Assembly (NCBI GenBank): GCA_016213785.1 | Contig: JACQZQ010000057.1 | Span: forward strand, 1 to 45,749 | DNA from: Acidobacteriota bacterium | GTDB lineage: Bacteria; Acidobacteriota; Blastocatellia; Chloracidobacteriales; JADJPF01 | Direction of reading: 5' to 3' | DNA: 45,749 nucleotides | In this document: piece after piece, positions 94 through 11,694 of the stretch | How positions within the stretch are numbered: the stretch's first letter is position 1 | How the letters are laid out: each line of letters begins with the position of its first letter | Notes under the pieces: generated by a model | Told to the model about the DNA's origin: nothing | Database searches by the model: none | The model's input: the letters and a program-made list of their open reading frames with translations, nothing else | Position numbers and translations under genes: made by a program

Positions 94-1035
94 TCAATAA
101 TTTTTCAAATTCTCATCTTTTTGGTTAAATACTATAATTTGCTGACATAATAAATCTAATGCAGCTTTAAGTGATTTTTGACCAGCCTCAATTAGCTTAT
201 CTGAGAAGTTACGCATTGCATTAATAAACTTTCGGTTATCATTTTTGTATGCTTCTCCCAGTTTCTGAATACGTTTACCAATACCATCTCCATCAATATG
301 AACAACAGCTAAATAACTTTGGTCGCCAAAACTTCTTCCTAGGTCATCAAAATCACTTGGATAAATAAACGCTTCAGGCGGTGGAATAATTTCTGCTAAC
401 CTTTGATTTGCTAAACTTGGTTTACCCGAATCGCTATCAGCATAAAATCTTTTAGCAAGTATTTCTGCTGATGCAGGGTATCCATCGCTATCACCTATTG
501 GCCTAGTAATTCCTACAGATGGGAAAGCTGTTGAACTACACTCTAGCGTGACTGATAATCCTAGCATTGGTACAGATCTAGAGTAGCTCTGTTTTTGTTC
601 CGCTAGTTGACTAAAAGTTTTATCAAAGATTTTTTTTAGTGAATCTGTCCAAGAAAATTCTACTGATTCTTGGATTAAAATCCTTAAATTAGGTGCCTTT
701 TTCATCACTTTACGTGAGAGAATGCGAGTAAATTCTCTTACATGTTCTATTTCTTGAAATATAACTAGGAAATTTCCTCCACCAGTATAAACAACTTCTG
801 CTGCAAGGGAGTTTGTTGTGTTTTCAATAGAAAGGCTTAGATCAAGTGCATCTTTATTAAGGTTTTTTCTAGTATCTTTAATATTATTTTTAGGGGTTAC
901 TTGTTGTACAGCTTTCATTGCCCATTGCCCAGTAGCTAGAGTTACTAGATGAGAAGCTCCAATATTTTCTCTTAACCGGTTACTAGAAAATATGTAGGGC
1001 TGAATTTGCGTAGTATCTACAATAACCAAGTACAT
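94..1035 (-). CDS. Cas10-like palm-domain protein, C-terminally truncated
   Basis: The 313-residue product resembles the Cas10/Cmr2 polymerase-cyclase family that makes cyclic oligoadenylates in type III CRISPR systems. It starts directly with a first-palm-like segment (IQPYIFSSNRLRENIGAS, residues 11-28) and has no HD nuclease domain. A YTGGGNFLVIF strand lies at 83-93. A second-palm metal-binding motif, VVHIDGDGIGK, lies at 244-254 with Asp248 and Asp250. Family members continue for a few hundred residues to a GGDD-type motif; this frame stops about 60 residues after DGDG, and I find no GGDD in any frame before the window edge. Similarity to the family seems to fade after about residue 296. 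The start is an ATG with an AAGGA ribosome site 6 nt upstream. It follows the CARF nuclease gene by 9 nt, so they are one operon. It is probably catalytically dead as written, or an assembly-edge fragment. Confidence 0.6.
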   Translation of the reverse strand: MYLVIVDTTQIQPYIFSSNRLRENIGASHLVTLATGQWAMKAVQQVTPKNNIKDTRKNLNKDALDLSLSIENTTNSLAAEVVYTGGGNFLVIFQEIEHVREFTRILSRKVMKKAPNLRILIQESVEFSWTDSLKKIFDKTFSQLAEQKQSYSRSVPMLGLSVTLECSSTAFPSVGITRPIGDSDGYPASAEILAKRFYADSDSGKPSLANQRLAEIIPPPEAFIYPSDFDDLGRSFGDQSYLAVVHIDGDGIGKRIQKLGEAYKNDNRKFINAMRNFSDKLIEAGQKSLKAALDLLCQQIIVFNQKDENLKNY

Positions 1036-1044
1036 ATTTAATCC

Positions 1045-2352
1045 TTACTTTATCCATTGTTCTAATTTTTGGCTTAACTGAGGGATATCTCTAGCGCTAA
1101 ACACTTTAATTCTGCCTAATCCAGGCATAAGGCTGTAAGCAGTGTCTTCTATATTTTGAGGGCTATCACTATAACAAACTAATGCTACTCTGGCCGCATC
1201 ACCACCAAGCTGACGAGCGCGAGTTATTATCTCAAAAAGTTTACGTTTTAATATTGCTCGTCCCCCAGGGTCTTGCCCACCTCCTTTAGATGTTGAACAG
1301 GAAATAGCAAAAAGCTGGTAGCCCTGCATTGCAACAACATCCAACTCAAAATCATCTAGAGAGTTTGTTCCTGTATCTGTTTCAGGCTTAAAATTCATCC
1401 TTATATCTTTCAATTGATAGCTTGGATTTGATTGACTTATTCTTGACTGGCAATCTCGTAATGCTTGTAAAGTAAAAGACTCTAACCATTTTCCGTCTAG
1501 CCAGTAAAAAAACTCTTCAGATTCTTTACCAGCAACAGCAGAAGCAGAAAAGTTTAATTGTCTTGCCGCATCCCCTAAAACAAAACTTGTGTTTCTAGTT
1601 TGTAACTCGTTTTGCAAAGCGGTCACAAAAGGCACTAAATTTCTATGAGTAGGTAAGTCGATGCTAACAGCGTCCAGATCAGCCATATCTAATAGCCTAC
1701 CCCTATACTTGCATTTTCTATTAAGCGCATCAGATATCCAAGACTTCCATTCCCTATAATTAAACTCACAAACTTTAGCAATGCTTTGTGCAACATTAAG
1801 CAAAATAGGTTGAGTAATTGGGTTTTCTTTTATTCTCCAACCATGTAAATCTATAAGTTCTTGTAGGGTTAGGTTAAAAACATTTCTAGTACTTAGTACT
1901 TTGCTCTGTTCTATGCCATCAAGAGCTTTTGGATCAAAGACCATATTTAGATTACGAGCATCTAAGTAACTAAATGATAAAGAGTTGATGCGTTTATTTG
2001 TTGCCCAATCTTTGATAGTTCGATATGTATGTACTGCCATAGTTTTAGTACCACCAGTATAATTAAGCCCTATAGATTCCAACTTTTCATTTCCTATTAA
2101 AGCTTCTTGTACGACTTTAATAATAGAAGAGGGATCTGTATCATCCATTTCTTTTAGTGTTGTAGGTATTTTTATTTCTTTTAATTTCTTCTCTAGTTTT
2201 TCGGCAATCTTTTCTGTTTCTTTTGTGTGTAGTAATGTAATTGCTCCGTTGGGGTTGACTAGTAATTTTCCAGCTACAAAATTAGGTAAAGGATTGCTTC
2301 CAACTAAAAGAAATAGGCGATCAACACGATAATCCGCAAAGCTATCAGGCAT
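1045..2352 (-). CDS. CARF-domain nuclease effector (DUF1887, Can2/Card1-like)
   Basis: The 435-residue product looks like a CRISPR ancillary effector: an N-terminal CARF sensor (about 1-150) followed by a PD-(D/E)xK nuclease fold (about 275-435). The CARF part contains FLLVGSN (14-20) and the diagnostic NYTGGTKTMAV (98-108), which binds cyclic oligoadenylate in relatives. The nuclease part has GKWLE (287-291), ELD (336-338), FAISCSTSK (348-356) and a KLFEIITRARQLGGD helix (371-385). The position usually held by the catalytic Lys of ECK reads Ser (SCS), so the active-site Lys may be Lys356 or one further on. The start is an ATG with AAGGAG 8 nt upstream. It is the first gene of the pair with the Cas10-like gene. 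Known relatives cut DNA or RNA when activated; the signal here is inferred. Confidence 0.72.
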   Translation of the reverse strand: MPDSFADYRVDRLFLLVGSNPLPNFVAGKLLVNPNGAITLLHTKETEKIAEKLEKKLKEIKIPTTLKEMDDTDPSSIIKVVQEALIGNEKLESIGLNYTGGTKTMAVHTYRTIKDWATNKRINSLSFSYLDARNLNMVFDPKALDGIEQSKVLSTRNVFNLTLQELIDLHGWRIKENPITQPILLNVAQSIAKVCEFNYREWKSWISDALNRKCKYRGRLLDMADLDAVSIDLPTHRNLVPFVTALQNELQTRNTSFVLGDAARQLNFSASAVAGKESEEFFYWLDGKWLESFTLQALRDCQSRISQSNPSYQLKDIRMNFKPETDTGTNSLDDFELDVVAMQGYQLFAISCSTSKGGGQDPGGRAILKRKLFEIITRARQLGGDAARVALVCYSDSPQNIEDTAYSLMPGLGRIKVFSARDIPQLSQKLEQWIK

Positions 2353-7211: not shown

Positions 7212-9923
7212 TTAGAGAATAATTTTTTGGTGCTTTTTTAGTATTGCTAAGCCATCTTTTATTATTCTACTATGGTCAAAAGCTAAATTAGAAGGTAGGG
7301 AAGAGACTCTTATCCATTCTGCATCACAAGCATCATCAGCACCAGCAATAGGCAAACTACTTAATTTATCGGGTAGATGTAATGCAAAAACTGTTGATCT
7401 GCTCCAGGCTTGAGGTGTGTCTCTAGGGTCACGTCCTTCACCCTCATAGCTACCAACAAAAATTAACTCAGACTCAAAATTCCTTAAATCTAAACTAGTT
7501 TCTTCAAGTAGCTCGCGAATACAAGCTTCGCGAGCCGTTTCTTTATCTGCTTGCCAATATGTACCGCGAGGTGCATCTGTGTGCTGAAACCCTCCAGGTA
7601 GTGCTAGTTTACTAGCTTCAGCCAAAGAATCATGTTCTCGCCGAATTAGTAGTATTTCTAGCTCTTTAGTTTTTGGATTATTACGGGTTAAAACAATATC
7701 TACTGTGGGATTTGCTCCTAAATGCCAGTAAGGCTCATTTGTTGAATTCCACGCTCTACTGTGTTGGAGTAGTTCTAAAACCTTTTTGGCACTAGTAAAA
7801 GTTTGATTTGGGTGTTGTTTAGCGTGTAAAGTGCTTGCGCCCTCAGGCCCGTCCATAAGTAAATAATTTAGCCTTAAATTGTCAGCAACTTGAATTTCAT
7901 CACTAACAATATTTCCTCCTCCAATAAATAAACATAATCCATTATATTCTTTTACTAGCTGATATAGACCTGCGGCTTTATCATAAAGATCTTCTCCCAC
8001 TAAACAAGTATAAGAAACGCTTTCTCTTTCTAGCCATAGCGGTGGAGTATCATTTACAAGTGTCGCTAAAACCTTGAGTTTAAGCATTATAGCTCTTTTT
8101 TGAACAACATTTGCAATTCCAAAACTTGTACCTCCAGTAATAATAACTACTTCATTTATATTAAGCTTAGGCAATAGTTCATCTAAAAATAAATATATTT
8201 TTTCTTTTTGCTCAAAAGAAATTTTTTCCCAACTTTTATACCAAGCCCCTGAAAATGAGATAACTTGTTTTCCTTTTAGTAAGTTATTTACTTCTTCTCT
8301 ATTAAGTAAAGGGATATTTATTTCTTTTAGCCTATCTAATAGGGCTTGATTACGTTTTTCCCTTTTAGCTTGCTTACGTGCTAATACTTCAGGAGTATAA
8401 TATTTATGTTCTAAGTCTTCAGAAACAATAAAATTTAAAGGTTTTTGTTTATCAAAAATTTCTCGACTCGCTAAATAATTTAATTCTGTTTTAGAAATTG
8501 CTTCAAAATCTTGCTTAGTTATTCCGCTAAGTAGCGCTGCTTGAGCTTCTATTTTTGTCGATGTTTGATAAATCCCATAACCATCTGTTCCTAAAACTAC
8601 TTGAACTCCTTTGTCTAAATAACGCTTTAACGGGACTTCTTGAGAGGTTTGAATATTATTTAAGGCTAAATTGGAGTTTAAGTTAAATTCTACAATTACT
8701 TTTGCTTTTTTAAGCTTTTCTAATGTTTCATCATCAACCCCAAATAGACCATGCCCTATCCTTATCTGAATCTGATAAGATTTAAGTATTTCTAAGACAG
8801 CACGGATATTTTCAGGATGAGCAGGATTTTCACCTGCATGGACACGAATCACAAAGCCAGGATAGCTTTTATCAGCCCAAGAAGCGACTTCTTGAAGTTG
8901 GCGAGTAAAAGCATAAGTTGAGTTGGTTTCATGGCCTAGAAAATCTACTCCTGCTATATAACGGCTTGCTGTTACTTGCTTAAGTTTTTCAATATAATCG
9001 AGATCCCATTCTAAATCATCGCTACGACCAATTGCTGATAGAAACCGAATTGTTAAGCCTGTTTCTAGTTCTATTTTAGGAATTTCACTCTCTATTAAGT
9101 TTAAGTAATTAGCATAAACACTATTAGCAAAAGAAAGCTCTATATATTTAGCTCCCATTGCTTTGTAATCCATCGCAATTTGACGACAAAGGGCAGTAAA
9201 GCAGTTGATATTTTTAGTAATAGGTGAGCGAAGCCGATAAATCTTTTCCATTCCAACAAATGGCACTCGTCTATCAAGAGGAATACAAAGGCTTTGTTCT
9301 AGAATTTTTTTTAGCTCTAAGGAAAGACTTGATAATGGAACAAGAGTATTTTCTTGAAAACGAATTCCTGCTAATTCTAGTATTTCACTTGGATAAGAGA
9401 CGTTATTTTCTATTCCAATTTGAATTAAATTTTTAGCTGAAACACAGCCAGCAAAATGAGTATGAAGATCTGTTAAGAGTAAGGGTAAACCTTCTAATAA
9501 ACCTTCTAAATTAGTTTCTGTAATTGGATGAGGGAAACCATTTTGTGCTAAAAACCTTGTCTCAAAAGGCGACAAAGTATAGTTAGACTCTAAGACCAGC
9601 CTATCATTAATTATTTTAACAGTAGCAAGTCTAATTAACTCATATTTACCTAACACAATTTCTATTATGCTATTGGCTGAATTGGCTAAATTAGCTAAAT
9701 TAGCTAATTTAGCTAAATCTAAAATTATTTGGTCTTCTATATTAGAAAAATAATAATCTTGGGCAAGTAGCTTAAAAAACAAATTATGTTTAAGAGCGTT
9801 ATGTAGCGTCGAACGGCGATCAGACAAAGAATGAGACAATTTAGCTATTAAAGAGTTTTGTTCTAAGGAAAATAATAAATAGTGCTGTGAGTTTTTATCT
9901 AAAGGCACTGTTATGTTTTTCAT
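7212..9923 (-). CDS. Adenosine deaminase-SLOG-Nudix fusion protein
   Basis: The 903-residue protein appears to join three nucleotide-handling domains. Residues about 145-480 are adenosine-deaminase-like: metal ligands LHTH (153-156), HAGE (362-365), RIGHG (388-392) and GTDG (445-448). The residue after the metal-binding Asp446 is Gly rather than the Asp seen in classical enzymes (TDDP). Residues about 552-715 look like a Rossmann SLOG/LOG nucleotide-binding domain, with FSGAW, ITGGTSFG (595-602) and FIGGGN (666-671). Residues about 735-900 are a Nudix hydrolase with LPGGF, then an extended loop and the box E795...RELLEE (803-808). The first 145 residues are unassigned and include LAN repeats (73-85). 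The gene starts 8 nt after the stop of the upstream repeat membrane protein, so they are probably co-transcribed after ymdB. Degradation or sensing of an adenine dinucleotide or ADP-ribose-type compound is inference. Confidence 0.75.
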   Translation of the reverse strand: MKNITVPLDKNSQHYLLFSLEQNSLIAKLSHSLSDRRSTLHNALKHNLFFKLLAQDYYFSNIEDQIILDLAKLANLANLANSANSIIEIVLGKYELIRLATVKIINDRLVLESNYTLSPFETRFLAQNGFPHPITETNLEGLLEGLPLLLTDLHTHFAGCVSAKNLIQIGIENNVSYPSEILELAGIRFQENTLVPLSSLSLELKKILEQSLCIPLDRRVPFVGMEKIYRLRSPITKNINCFTALCRQIAMDYKAMGAKYIELSFANSVYANYLNLIESEIPKIELETGLTIRFLSAIGRSDDLEWDLDYIEKLKQVTASRYIAGVDFLGHETNSTYAFTRQLQEVASWADKSYPGFVIRVHAGENPAHPENIRAVLEILKSYQIQIRIGHGLFGVDDETLEKLKKAKVIVEFNLNSNLALNNIQTSQEVPLKRYLDKGVQVVLGTDGYGIYQTSTKIEAQAALLSGITKQDFEAISKTELNYLASREIFDKQKPLNFIVSEDLEHKYYTPEVLARKQAKREKRNQALLDRLKEINIPLLNREEVNNLLKGKQVISFSGAWYKSWEKISFEQKEKIYLFLDELLPKLNINEVVIITGGTSFGIANVVQKRAIMLKLKVLATLVNDTPPLWLERESVSYTCLVGEDLYDKAAGLYQLVKEYNGLCLFIGGGNIVSDEIQVADNLRLNYLLMDGPEGASTLHAKQHPNQTFTSAKKVLELLQHSRAWNSTNEPYWHLGANPTVDIVLTRNNPKTKELEILLIRREHDSLAEASKLALPGGFQHTDAPRGTYWQADKETAREACIRELLEETSLDLRNFESELIFVGSYEGEGRDPRDTPQAWSRSTVFALHLPDKLSSLPIAGADDACDAEWIRVSSLPSNLAFDHSRIIKDGLAILKKHQKIIL
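9671..9718. repeat. In-frame 9-base repeats coding LAN/LAK units
   Basis: Degenerate tandem units related to GCTAAATTA lie inside the 5' part of the ADA-SLOG-Nudix gene. They encode residues 69-85, rich in Leu-Ala-Asn. The unit length keeps frame, so copy-number change would not break the gene. Confidence 0.6.
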
Positions 9924-9931
9924 AAAGAATT

Positions 9932-10888
9932 CTATTTGTTTAAGGAATCTATATGCTTTTCTGCCATCTCACCAATATAAGGTAATTTCCATTGTTCACC
10001 CTTATAAGCTCTATACATTGCCATTAACCAAGCACCAAAAAGAAATAGAAATACTAGGTTAGAAAATACAGTAAAGAGTTTTAGGAATATTGGTAGGCCA
10101 ATAATTGCAAAAAATGCACTAAAGGCAAAATAGACTATATGACTAGCAAGATAAAACACAAACCATGCAGCAGAAAAAAAGATTGATTGCATAGCATGAA
10201 AACGCACCAGACGATTTTCTTTTTCTGTAGTAAAGAGAAAATAAAGCCCTGAAACAAAAAATAATAAATAGCATAGAGGTGAGGCTAGAGTAGGCTCAAA
10301 ATTGACCTTTAATTGATTTAAGTCAATACCTTGTCGTATAGGTTGTTGATTTGCATCATATTGCTGATAGCCTTGTTGGTTAGGATCATAGTATTGTTGA
10401 TTAGGGTTATAAGCCTGTTGATTAGGGTCATAATACTGCTGATTTTGTTGATAGCCTTGTTGGTTAGGGTCATAGTATTGTTGATTAGGGTTATAAGCCT
10501 GTTGGTTAGGGTCATAGTACTGTTGATTAGGGTTATAAGTCTGTTGGTTAGGGTCATAATATTGTTGTGGTTGGCTGTAGGGTTGATTAGGGTCATAGTA
10601 TTGTTGATTAGGAGGGTAGTATTGTTGTGGAGGTTGTTGAAAGGATTGATTGTAGGGCTGTTGATGATGATGTTGTTGAAAGGGTTGTTGATGTTGTTGA
10701 TGTTGTTGAGGGGCTAGGTTTGGAGGATGGTTCATAGGCTGTGTAGGCATTTCATTAGTTTGATAAGGGTTATAAGGCACATTATTATATTGGGGGTTTG
10801 TTTGAGGAGATTTTGTTGAATTAGGAGGTTGTGTGGATTGTGGATTAGGTTGTTTAGGATCTTGTTGATTTGGCGGTTGATTAGCCAT
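9932..10888 (-). CDS. DUF4870/Tic20-like membrane protein with YYDPNQQ repeats
   Basis: The 318-residue protein has two parts. Residues 1-185 are low-complexity, rich in Pro, Gln, Asn and Tyr. They include at least five units close to 14 residues long with the core QQYYDPNQQ. Residues about 200-318 form a membrane domain with segments near 203-220, 235-258 and 275-293. Its RLVRFHAMQSIFFS and YRAYKGEQWKLPYIGE patterns match DUF4870/Tic20-like proteins. There is no signal peptide, so the repeat tail is probably cytoplasmic and could act as an interaction or condensate-forming tether. An AGGAGG ribosome site precedes the ATG. It sits between ymdB (23 nt upstream) and the ADA-SLOG-Nudix gene (8 nt downstream). 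The function is unknown. Confidence 0.75.
   Translation of the reverse strand: MANQPPNQQDPKQPNPQSTQPPNSTKSPQTNPQYNNVPYNPYQTNEMPTQPMNHPPNLAPQQHQQHQQPFQQHHHQQPYNQSFQQPPQQYYPPNQQYYDPNQPYSQPQQYYDPNQQTYNPNQQYYDPNQQAYNPNQQYYDPNQQGYQQNQQYYDPNQQAYNPNQQYYDPNQQGYQQYDANQQPIRQGIDLNQLKVNFEPTLASPLCYLLFFVSGLYFLFTTEKENRLVRFHAMQSIFFSAAWFVFYLASHIVYFAFSAFFAIIGLPIFLKLFTVFSNLVFLFLFGAWLMAMYRAYKGEQWKLPYIGEMAEKHIDSLNK
10349..10633. repeat. Coding tandem repeats, unit about 42 bases
   Basis: Near-identical units of about 42 bases encode the YYDPNQQ-type 14-residue repeats (residues 86-180 of the membrane protein). Several neighbouring units differ by only one or two bases, which suggests recent duplication or recombination. 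Confidence 0.8.
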
Positions 10889-10911: not shown

Positions 10912-11694
10912 TTAATCGTAAGGCACTCTTAACCTAACGATTGATTTAGCCTGACCTGTTTGTGAATTAATATCAATAATTACACCACATAATGAACAAT
11001 CACGCTCACCTATTTCTAGTTTACGTGAAAACCCTAGTAAAAATTTTTCTATAACAGTATTTTTATCAATTCCAATCACACTATCATAAGGCCCAGTCAT
11101 TCCTAAGTCTGTAATATAAGCTGTACCACTAGTTAGAATTCTTTCGTCTGCTGTTGGAACATGGGTATGTGTTCCTACTACAGCGCTAACTCGGCCATCT
11201 AAATACCAACCCATAGCTGCTTTTTCGCTGGTTGCTTCAGCATGGTGATCAACTAAAATTACTCTAATTTTTTTATCTAAATTGCTAAGAATTTTATCTA
11301 CTGCATGAAAAGGGCAATCATTAGGAGCCATAAAGGTACGCCCTTGTAAATTAATTACTGCAATAGGAATATCTTGGCTACTTTTTCCTGTCCAAAGGCC
11401 TGAGCCAGGCAATTCTTGAGCATAATTTGCTGGTCTTAATAAACGAGGTTGATCTTTAATATAATCAAGTATATCTCTTTTATCAAAAATATGATTACCT
11501 GAGGTCATTACATCAATACCAGCAGAAAGAAATTCTTCTGCCATATAAGGTAACATACCAAATCCACCAGCGGCATTTTCAACATTAGCAACTACAAAAT
11601 CTATTTTATAATCTCGCTTAATATTCTTAAGCTGTTCCATTACTACGGCACGTCCAACACGCCCAACAATATCACCTATCATTAATACTTTCAT
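10912..11694 (-). CDS. ymdB: YmdB-family metallophosphoesterase
   Basis: The 260-residue protein belongs to the TIGR00282/YmdB family of dinuclear metallophosphoesterases. The Bacillus subtilis member hydrolyses 2',3'-cyclic nucleotides in vitro and influences biofilm and motility decisions. Metal-binding positions are visible in order: GDIVGRVGR near the start (Asp8), NVENAAGGFG (37-46), TSGNHIFDKRDIL (Asn67), VDHHAEATSEK and GTHTHVPTADERIL. Length matches the family. It begins the downstream part of the minus-strand block, after 6S RNA, and is followed at 23 nt by the repeat membrane protein. It could share a transcript with it and with the ADA-SLOG-Nudix gene. Confidence 0.9.
   Translation of the reverse strand: MKVLMIGDIVGRVGRAVVMEQLKNIKRDYKIDFVVANVENAAGGFGMLPYMAEEFLSAGIDVMTSGNHIFDKRDILDYIKDQPRLLRPANYAQELPGSGLWTGKSSQDIPIAVINLQGRTFMAPNDCPFHAVDKILSNLDKKIRVILVDHHAEATSEKAAMGWYLDGRVSAVVGTHTHVPTADERILTSGTAYITDLGMTGPYDSVIGIDKNTVIEKFLLGFSRKLEIGERDCSLCGVIIDINSQTGQAKSIVRLRVPYD

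Follow-up and report, generated by a model that had tools for sequence, protein, structure and literature searches.

A bacterial protein with adenosine deaminase-superfamily, SLOG and Nudix domains in a single chain

The window, the whole stretch of 45,749 nucleotides of Acidobacteriota DNA that was analysed, carries on its reverse strand an intact open reading frame at 7212..9923, which starts with ATG, has no internal stops and encodes a protein of 903 residues. As defined from the reading frame, Pfam and the AlphaFold2 model, the complete gene codes for an N-terminal domain followed by an adenosine deaminase (ADA)-superfamily domain, a SLOG domain and a Nudix domain. The full-length AlphaFold2 model, for which 19 aligned relatives served as input, has a pLDDT of 87.4 and a pTM of 0.87, with residues 511-534 forming a long helical linker between the ADA and SLOG domains. 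In a Pfam scan of the whole protein A_deaminase and NUDIX scored above their cut-offs and LSDAT_prok below; a match to Radical_SAM (E 0.005), below cut-off, was taken as spurious.

The gene is stand-alone and chromosomal. It lies downstream of pheST-zapBA, following ymdB and a gene for a DUF4870 protein with a Gln/Asn-rich repeat (9932..10888, reverse strand), which is 8 bp from the start of the fusion gene and is probably co-transcribed with it. The repeat of the DUF4870 protein is long and of the (Y/N)NPNQQYYDPNQQ type. The YmdB-like phosphodiesterase (10912..11694, reverse strand; PF13277, 1.2e-106) is encoded further upstream, at a distance of 23 bp from the DUF4870 gene. In another genome of the same genus zapA-ymdB is kept and the fusion gene is absent from the 8 kb read, and in a genome of the same family pheST-zapBA-ymdB-DUF4870 is kept, again with the fusion gene absent, so the gene has been gained or lost at this site. 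Positions 94-2352 (reverse strand), about 5 kb from the fusion gene, hold a Card1/Can2-type CARF-PDDEXK nuclease and then the front part of a Cas10, which is III-D-like and interrupted close to the end of the contig; the C-terminal part of this Cas10 is on contig C40 of the same genome. Beside that part, C40 has type III CRISPR (RAMP)-like genes and a reverse-transcriptase-like ORF.

In 162 genomes of the class and in genomes sampled from the phylum, the only relatives found were separate ADA or Nudix proteins, and single-protein searches of genomes and viral contigs gave no match, the peptides chosen for them not being the conserved ones. A search steered to the catalytic motifs (peptides TDLHTHFA and GTDGYGIY) recovered 26 related loci, a lower bound from the scanning of two peptides. 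These come from Actinomycetota, Planctomycetota, Myxococcota (Archangium, Hyalangium), Verrucomicrobia, Alphaproteobacteria, Bacilli/Clostridia, Saccharibacteria and Gastranaerophilales, the labels being mostly those of MAGs, of which single ones may be wrong. Searches with SLOG profiles added eight genomes, six myxobacterial and two from divergent Clostridia, and in the myxobacterial order a SLOG profile matched in 10 of 145 genomes. Searched by itself against 396 genomes of the same phylum, the SLOG segment matched nothing significantly (best E 0.02), and it had no match in plasmids. No full-length relative was found in plasmids or phages, nor when viral sequences were scanned with the family alignment, nor in viral contigs by the motif-steered search (rows masked with X).

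Because the architecture recurs at the 26 related loci, several of them aligning end to end, the fusion is on the sequence evidence neither an assembly artefact nor a chance event. All three domains are present at nine of the 26 loci and in the five of the added myxobacterial genes that were read over their whole length. Homologues without the middle domain, which the earlier note had named, in a plain purine salvage context, as one case that would count against it, did not appear: each of the relatives found has the SLOG region, and it is the Nudix that some lack instead. The three-domain members are environmental (Planctomycetota, Myxococcota, Verrucomicrobia and others). Members from gut and rumen are without the Nudix, often with a PGDYG-like gene adjacent or fused, and the 16 Nudix-less rows form a single clade in the ADA-domain tree (100/100). 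For congeneric myxobacterial or Archangium pairs dN/dS is 0.10-0.25 in the ADA, 0.05-0.17 in the SLOG and 0.10-0.24 in the Nudix domain; all three are under purifying selection and thus maintained. The gene occupies one chromosomal site, with shared neighbours, in four related myxobacteria, where its inheritance is vertical. The family, as far as its sequences can be sampled, is scattered yet conserved across several phyla.

The PGDYG-like module (PF14083, below cut-off) was seen at L080 (7100-7633), L084 (7129-7632) and L081 (4849-5493). Regions related to it by sequence similarity only are found at L087 (10318-11034) and L088 (7253-7957), both without a Pfam match, and in fused form at the C-termini of L089 and L091 and the N-terminus of L083. 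Homologues also occur in jumbo phages, in one of five of which (XacN1) the gene is clustered with DUF1768 (NADAR) and NAD-salvage genes; from this single phage no link of the module to NAD salvage was drawn.

The ADA-superfamily amidohydrolase domain (residues 146-500; 8424..9488, reverse strand) was delimited by Pfam and VIA. A_deaminase (PF00962) matches residues 236-478 with an E value of 2.8e-20 and 73.1 bits against a cut-off of 27, and the barrel of the AlphaFold2 model gives VIA Z scores of ~30 to ADA, ADAL, Cad1 and ADA2. All 19 aligned members, without exception, have H154, H156, H362, E365, H391 and D447. The first two make up the HxH metal-ligand motif (9456..9464), whose invariance was partly imposed by the search peptide TDLHTHFA; the catalytic H362 and E365 belong to the HAGE motif (8829..8840), and the metal ligand H391 of RIGHG is encoded at 8751..8753, all on the reverse strand. 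With the profile, the TIM-barrel fold and the metal and catalytic residues all present, the protein falls within the ADA superfamily.

In the TDG motif (residues 446-448; 8580..8588, reverse strand) the metal-ligand Asp447 is kept and the second canonical aspartate is replaced with Gly448 in 19 of 19 members. The canonical ADAs of the class with a readable motif have [ST]DDP, including a separate one that the genome of the fusion protein encodes at another place. Inspection of the alignment indicates that the glycine is not a search artefact, because position 449 is free to vary in members found through the other search peptide and because members found by SLOG profile alone (L102, L114-L118) also have DG. 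In murine ADA (D295/D296) it is the second aspartate that contacts the purine N7. Since this residue is a glycine in all members, base recognition should, by analogy, differ from that of classical ADA. The protein was not placed among the canonical adenosine deaminases, as it scores 76 bits against the TIGR01430 equivalog cut-off of 216.55 and its DD pair is missing the second Asp; the ADA-domain tree sets the family apart, at 100/100, from the 14 canonical ADAs sampled.

The SLOG domain (residues 545-722; 7758..8291, reverse strand) was assigned from family profiles, AlphaFold2, Foldseek and VIA. LSDAT_prok matched the whole protein with an E value of 0.12 and the excised segment with about 0.002-0.004, at 17.8 bits against a cut-off of 25.4, so that of the three folds named in the earlier note only the deaminase and the Nudix pass their Pfam models. 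Among 18 family SLOG segments, LSDAT_prok matched 11, LSDAT_euk six, YAcAr four (best 4.7e-7) and LDcluster4 three. The AlphaFold2 model of the segment has a pLDDT of 91.9 and its best Foldseek and VIA matches are LOG-like proteins, a Moco carrier, the SLOG of TRPM2/4 and DprA (VIA Z of 17.4 for TM1055, 16.7 for the Moco carrier, 15.9 for the TRPM2 chanzyme, ~15 for LOG and 14.8 for DprA); the SLOG-type fold on which the earlier note had staked its reading is therefore borne out by the model. As a predicted fold the assignment, weak from the single sequence alone, is secured by the family profiles and AlphaFold2. A GGTxxG motif (residues 597-602; 8118..8135, reverse strand) has G598 and T599 in 18 of 19 members and G602 in all 19. 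The alignment columns further show GGGxIVxDE (residues 668-676; 7896..7922, reverse strand) in place of the LOG motif PGGxGTxxE, which is absent from all aligned members (columns 667-677). Membership of the LOG phosphoribohydrolases was rejected on this ground, and the missing motif suggests a binding or sensing role for the domain.

The Nudix domain (residues 735-895; 7239..7721, reverse strand) is matched by Pfam NUDIX (E 2e-8, residues 739-889, above cut-off), by phrog_1198 (6e-9) and, in Foldseek, by NMNAT/ADP-ribose pyrophosphatase (2e-9). RELLEE (residues 803-808; 7500..7517, reverse strand) is the catalytic core of the Nudix box, with E807 and E808 in 10 of 10 Nudix-bearing aligned members; the window protein and its closest relatives have an insertion of ~12 residues inside the box. 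The REUXEE box with its catalytic glutamate pair and the Pfam score identify the domain as a predicted Nudix hydrolase. It appears closest to the ADP-ribose pyrophosphatase types, and hydrolysis of ADP-ribose is a prediction; related Nudix enzymes act on many dinucleotides, and the substrate is not readable from sequence. A Nudix gene with 37% identity to the Nudix of the window (E 2e-22) was noticed in an uncultured 635-kb phage (LR745206.1; L023, 3589-4501), directly behind a small DUF1937/SLOG-like-looking gene, a possible split SLOG and Nudix pair in a megaphage.

The N-terminal domain (residues 1-140; 9504..9923, reverse strand) is beta-rich by the secondary structure of the AlphaFold2 model, with mostly high pLDDT. 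Its ~140 residues align in nearly all members, being short or missing in L095, and it is the fastest-evolving part, yet with a dN/dS of 0.23-0.36. Residues 1-145 have no confident Pfam match and no PADLOC model match; the VIA scores of the full-length model apply to residues 133-493. A short in-frame repeat, LANLANLANSANS, was seen at approximately 9660-9720 (~residues 73-85), where the model has a loop of low confidence. The earlier note had proposed a chain of deaminase, SLOG and Nudix at 7212-9923. That architecture stands, with an intact frame, ADA and Nudix above the Pfam cut-offs and SLOG from family profiles and AlphaFold2; to be corrected are the glycine at the N7-binding aspartate, the absence of the LOG motif and the extra ~140-residue N-terminal domain.

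The protein belongs to the ADA, SLOG and Nudix superfamilies and is not a canonical ADA, LOG or Cad1. In the open-access literature (the 2015 SLOG survey falling outside this scope) and the curated family models with which it was compared, no description of its architecture was found. Like TRPM2 (SLOG MHR1/2 ... NUDT9-H) and the related chanzymes it combines SLOG and an ADP-ribose-type Nudix in one chain, with the SLOG fold close by VIA; TRPM2, however, has an ion channel between the two, whereas the fusion protein is soluble and has an N-terminal deaminase. Cad1, a CARF-ADA protein, is a type III CRISPR effector (PMC11645235). The fusion protein resembles it in joining a nucleotide-binding Rossmann-like domain to an ADA fold, but SLOG replaces CARF and sits C-terminally, a Nudix is added, the motif is TDG and no consistent link of the family to CRISPR was noticed among the neighbours surveyed. 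Cad1 membership was rejected, there being no CARF domain N-terminal to the ADA and the PADLOC CARF_ADA match (4.6e-16, profile positions 251-565) covering the ADA part only. With the ADA and ADAL (MAPDA) deaminases the protein shares fold and metal ligands; it differs in the glycine, the N-terminal domain, the SLOG and Nudix domains and its position in the tree. The LOG phosphoribohydrolases are similar in SLOG fold and distinct in their motif. The bifunctional NMN adenylyltransferase/ADP-ribose pyrophosphatases, NUDIX (RDPR...FDH type), correspond in the Nudix by profile and fold, but have other partner domains and differ from the window protein and its closest relatives by the Nudix-box insertion. 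PADLOC PDC-S07 also matched two members weakly, and the literature on PDC-S07 makes no statement on mechanism.

In function the family probably either processes or senses a molecule that contains adenine, perhaps one derived from NAD, and the suggestion of the earlier note that the protein degrades, edits or senses such a signal stays plausible. Our preferred reading, with a probability of about 0.4, is a stand-alone, nucleotide-ligand-regulated, metal-dependent adenine-nucleotide deaminase whose Nudix partner would act on a ligand of the ADP-ribose type. In TRPM2 and ThsA the SLOG domains bind an adenine nucleotide or ADP-ribose-like ligand, and the SLOG here may do the same; once ligand-bound it would control or feed the ADA-superfamily domain, which would deaminate a phosphorylated or modified adenine compound and not plain adenosine. 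In the environmental lineages the Nudix would hydrolyse the diphosphate of the ADP-ribose-type ligand, so making or removing substrate or signal, while the gut lineages would have dropped it, often in the company of a PGDYG-like protein. We infer this substrate, the sensing role and the cooperation of the domains; consistent with them are the invariant ADA residues, TDG alongside a separate canonical ADA, a TRPM2/LOG-like SLOG without PGGxGTxxE, an intact Nudix box, dN/dS of 0.05-0.25 in the three domains, vertical inheritance and the lack of any SLOG-less member. Against it, the SLOG might, its motif having diverged, be a catalytic domain after all, or it might be purely structural; the Nudix is not essential, as Nudix-less members exist; and the neighbourhoods give no consistent pathway, nor does sequence give the Nudix substrate.

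A salvage or clean-up chain would dispense with sensing: the Nudix would yield AMP from ADP-ribose or a dinucleotide, the ADA would turn AMP into IMP, and a LOG-like SLOG would give base and ribose-5-phosphate. These activities are chemically consecutive and the chromosomal contexts are of a housekeeping kind, and an IMPDH gene lies 224 bp downstream of the ADA-SLOG gene on the same strand at L096 (2506-6703), with an IMPDH/GMP-reductase-family gene ~4 kb away at L080. Purine-gene neighbours are, however, found at just two of 13 loci scanned, no member has the LOG motif and a Nudix-less clade exists, and we regard the chain as possible but rather doubtful. LOG enzymes act on N6-modified AMP, and by structure the N6-methyl-AMP deaminases (human ADAL, Arabidopsis MAPDA) rank with the best matches, which would fit disposal of N6-modified adenine nucleotides, the Nudix releasing modified AMP, an ADAL/MAPDA-like deaminase taking off the N6 group to make IMP and the SLOG binding or cleaving the nucleotide. 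Canonical ADA, Cad1 and ADA2 match equally well, though, and the context gives no evidence for such a route, which seems distinctly unlikely.

An anti-phage effector like Cad1 or RADAR, in which the SLOG would perceive infection and the deaminase drain ATP or another pool, is brought to mind by the type III CRISPR genes of the window, the CARF_ADA match and defence-like neighbours at a few gut loci. That model also matches ordinary ADAs, including those of E. coli and other control genomes, the protein has no CARF domain, and its inheritance in myxobacteria is vertical and syntenic. The earlier note had looked to shared TIR or CARF neighbours for support of a signalling role; Card1 and Cas10 are indeed present in the window. 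For the relatives, a survey of 138 neighbours at 13 gut loci (the 25 commonest of 103 matching families) and of high-GC flanks by eye brought no gene for CARF, Cas10 or TIR to notice, which is not proof of absence. We consider a defence role quite improbable. A plain adenosine deaminase with two vestigial domains, for which the intact metal site might be cited, is already disfavoured and highly improbable, given purifying selection on SLOG and Nudix, the kept Nudix box, the lost N7-binding Asp and the canonical ADA elsewhere in the genome.

Alongside the preferred ligand-regulated deaminase stands the unlikely, more speculative idea of receptor, effector and eraser of an NAD-derived signal in one chain, where the SLOG would sense an ADP-ribose-type ligand, the deaminase would alter the nucleotide pool or the ligand and the Nudix would destroy the ligand; if true, this would be a soluble bacterial counterpart of TRPM2/Cad1 logic. 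The family connects the deamination of purines to the biology of SLOG and Nudix domains, and provides a set of proteins suited to asking whether a metabolic enzyme is gated by a bacterial SLOG and which compound a TDG-type ADA deaminates.
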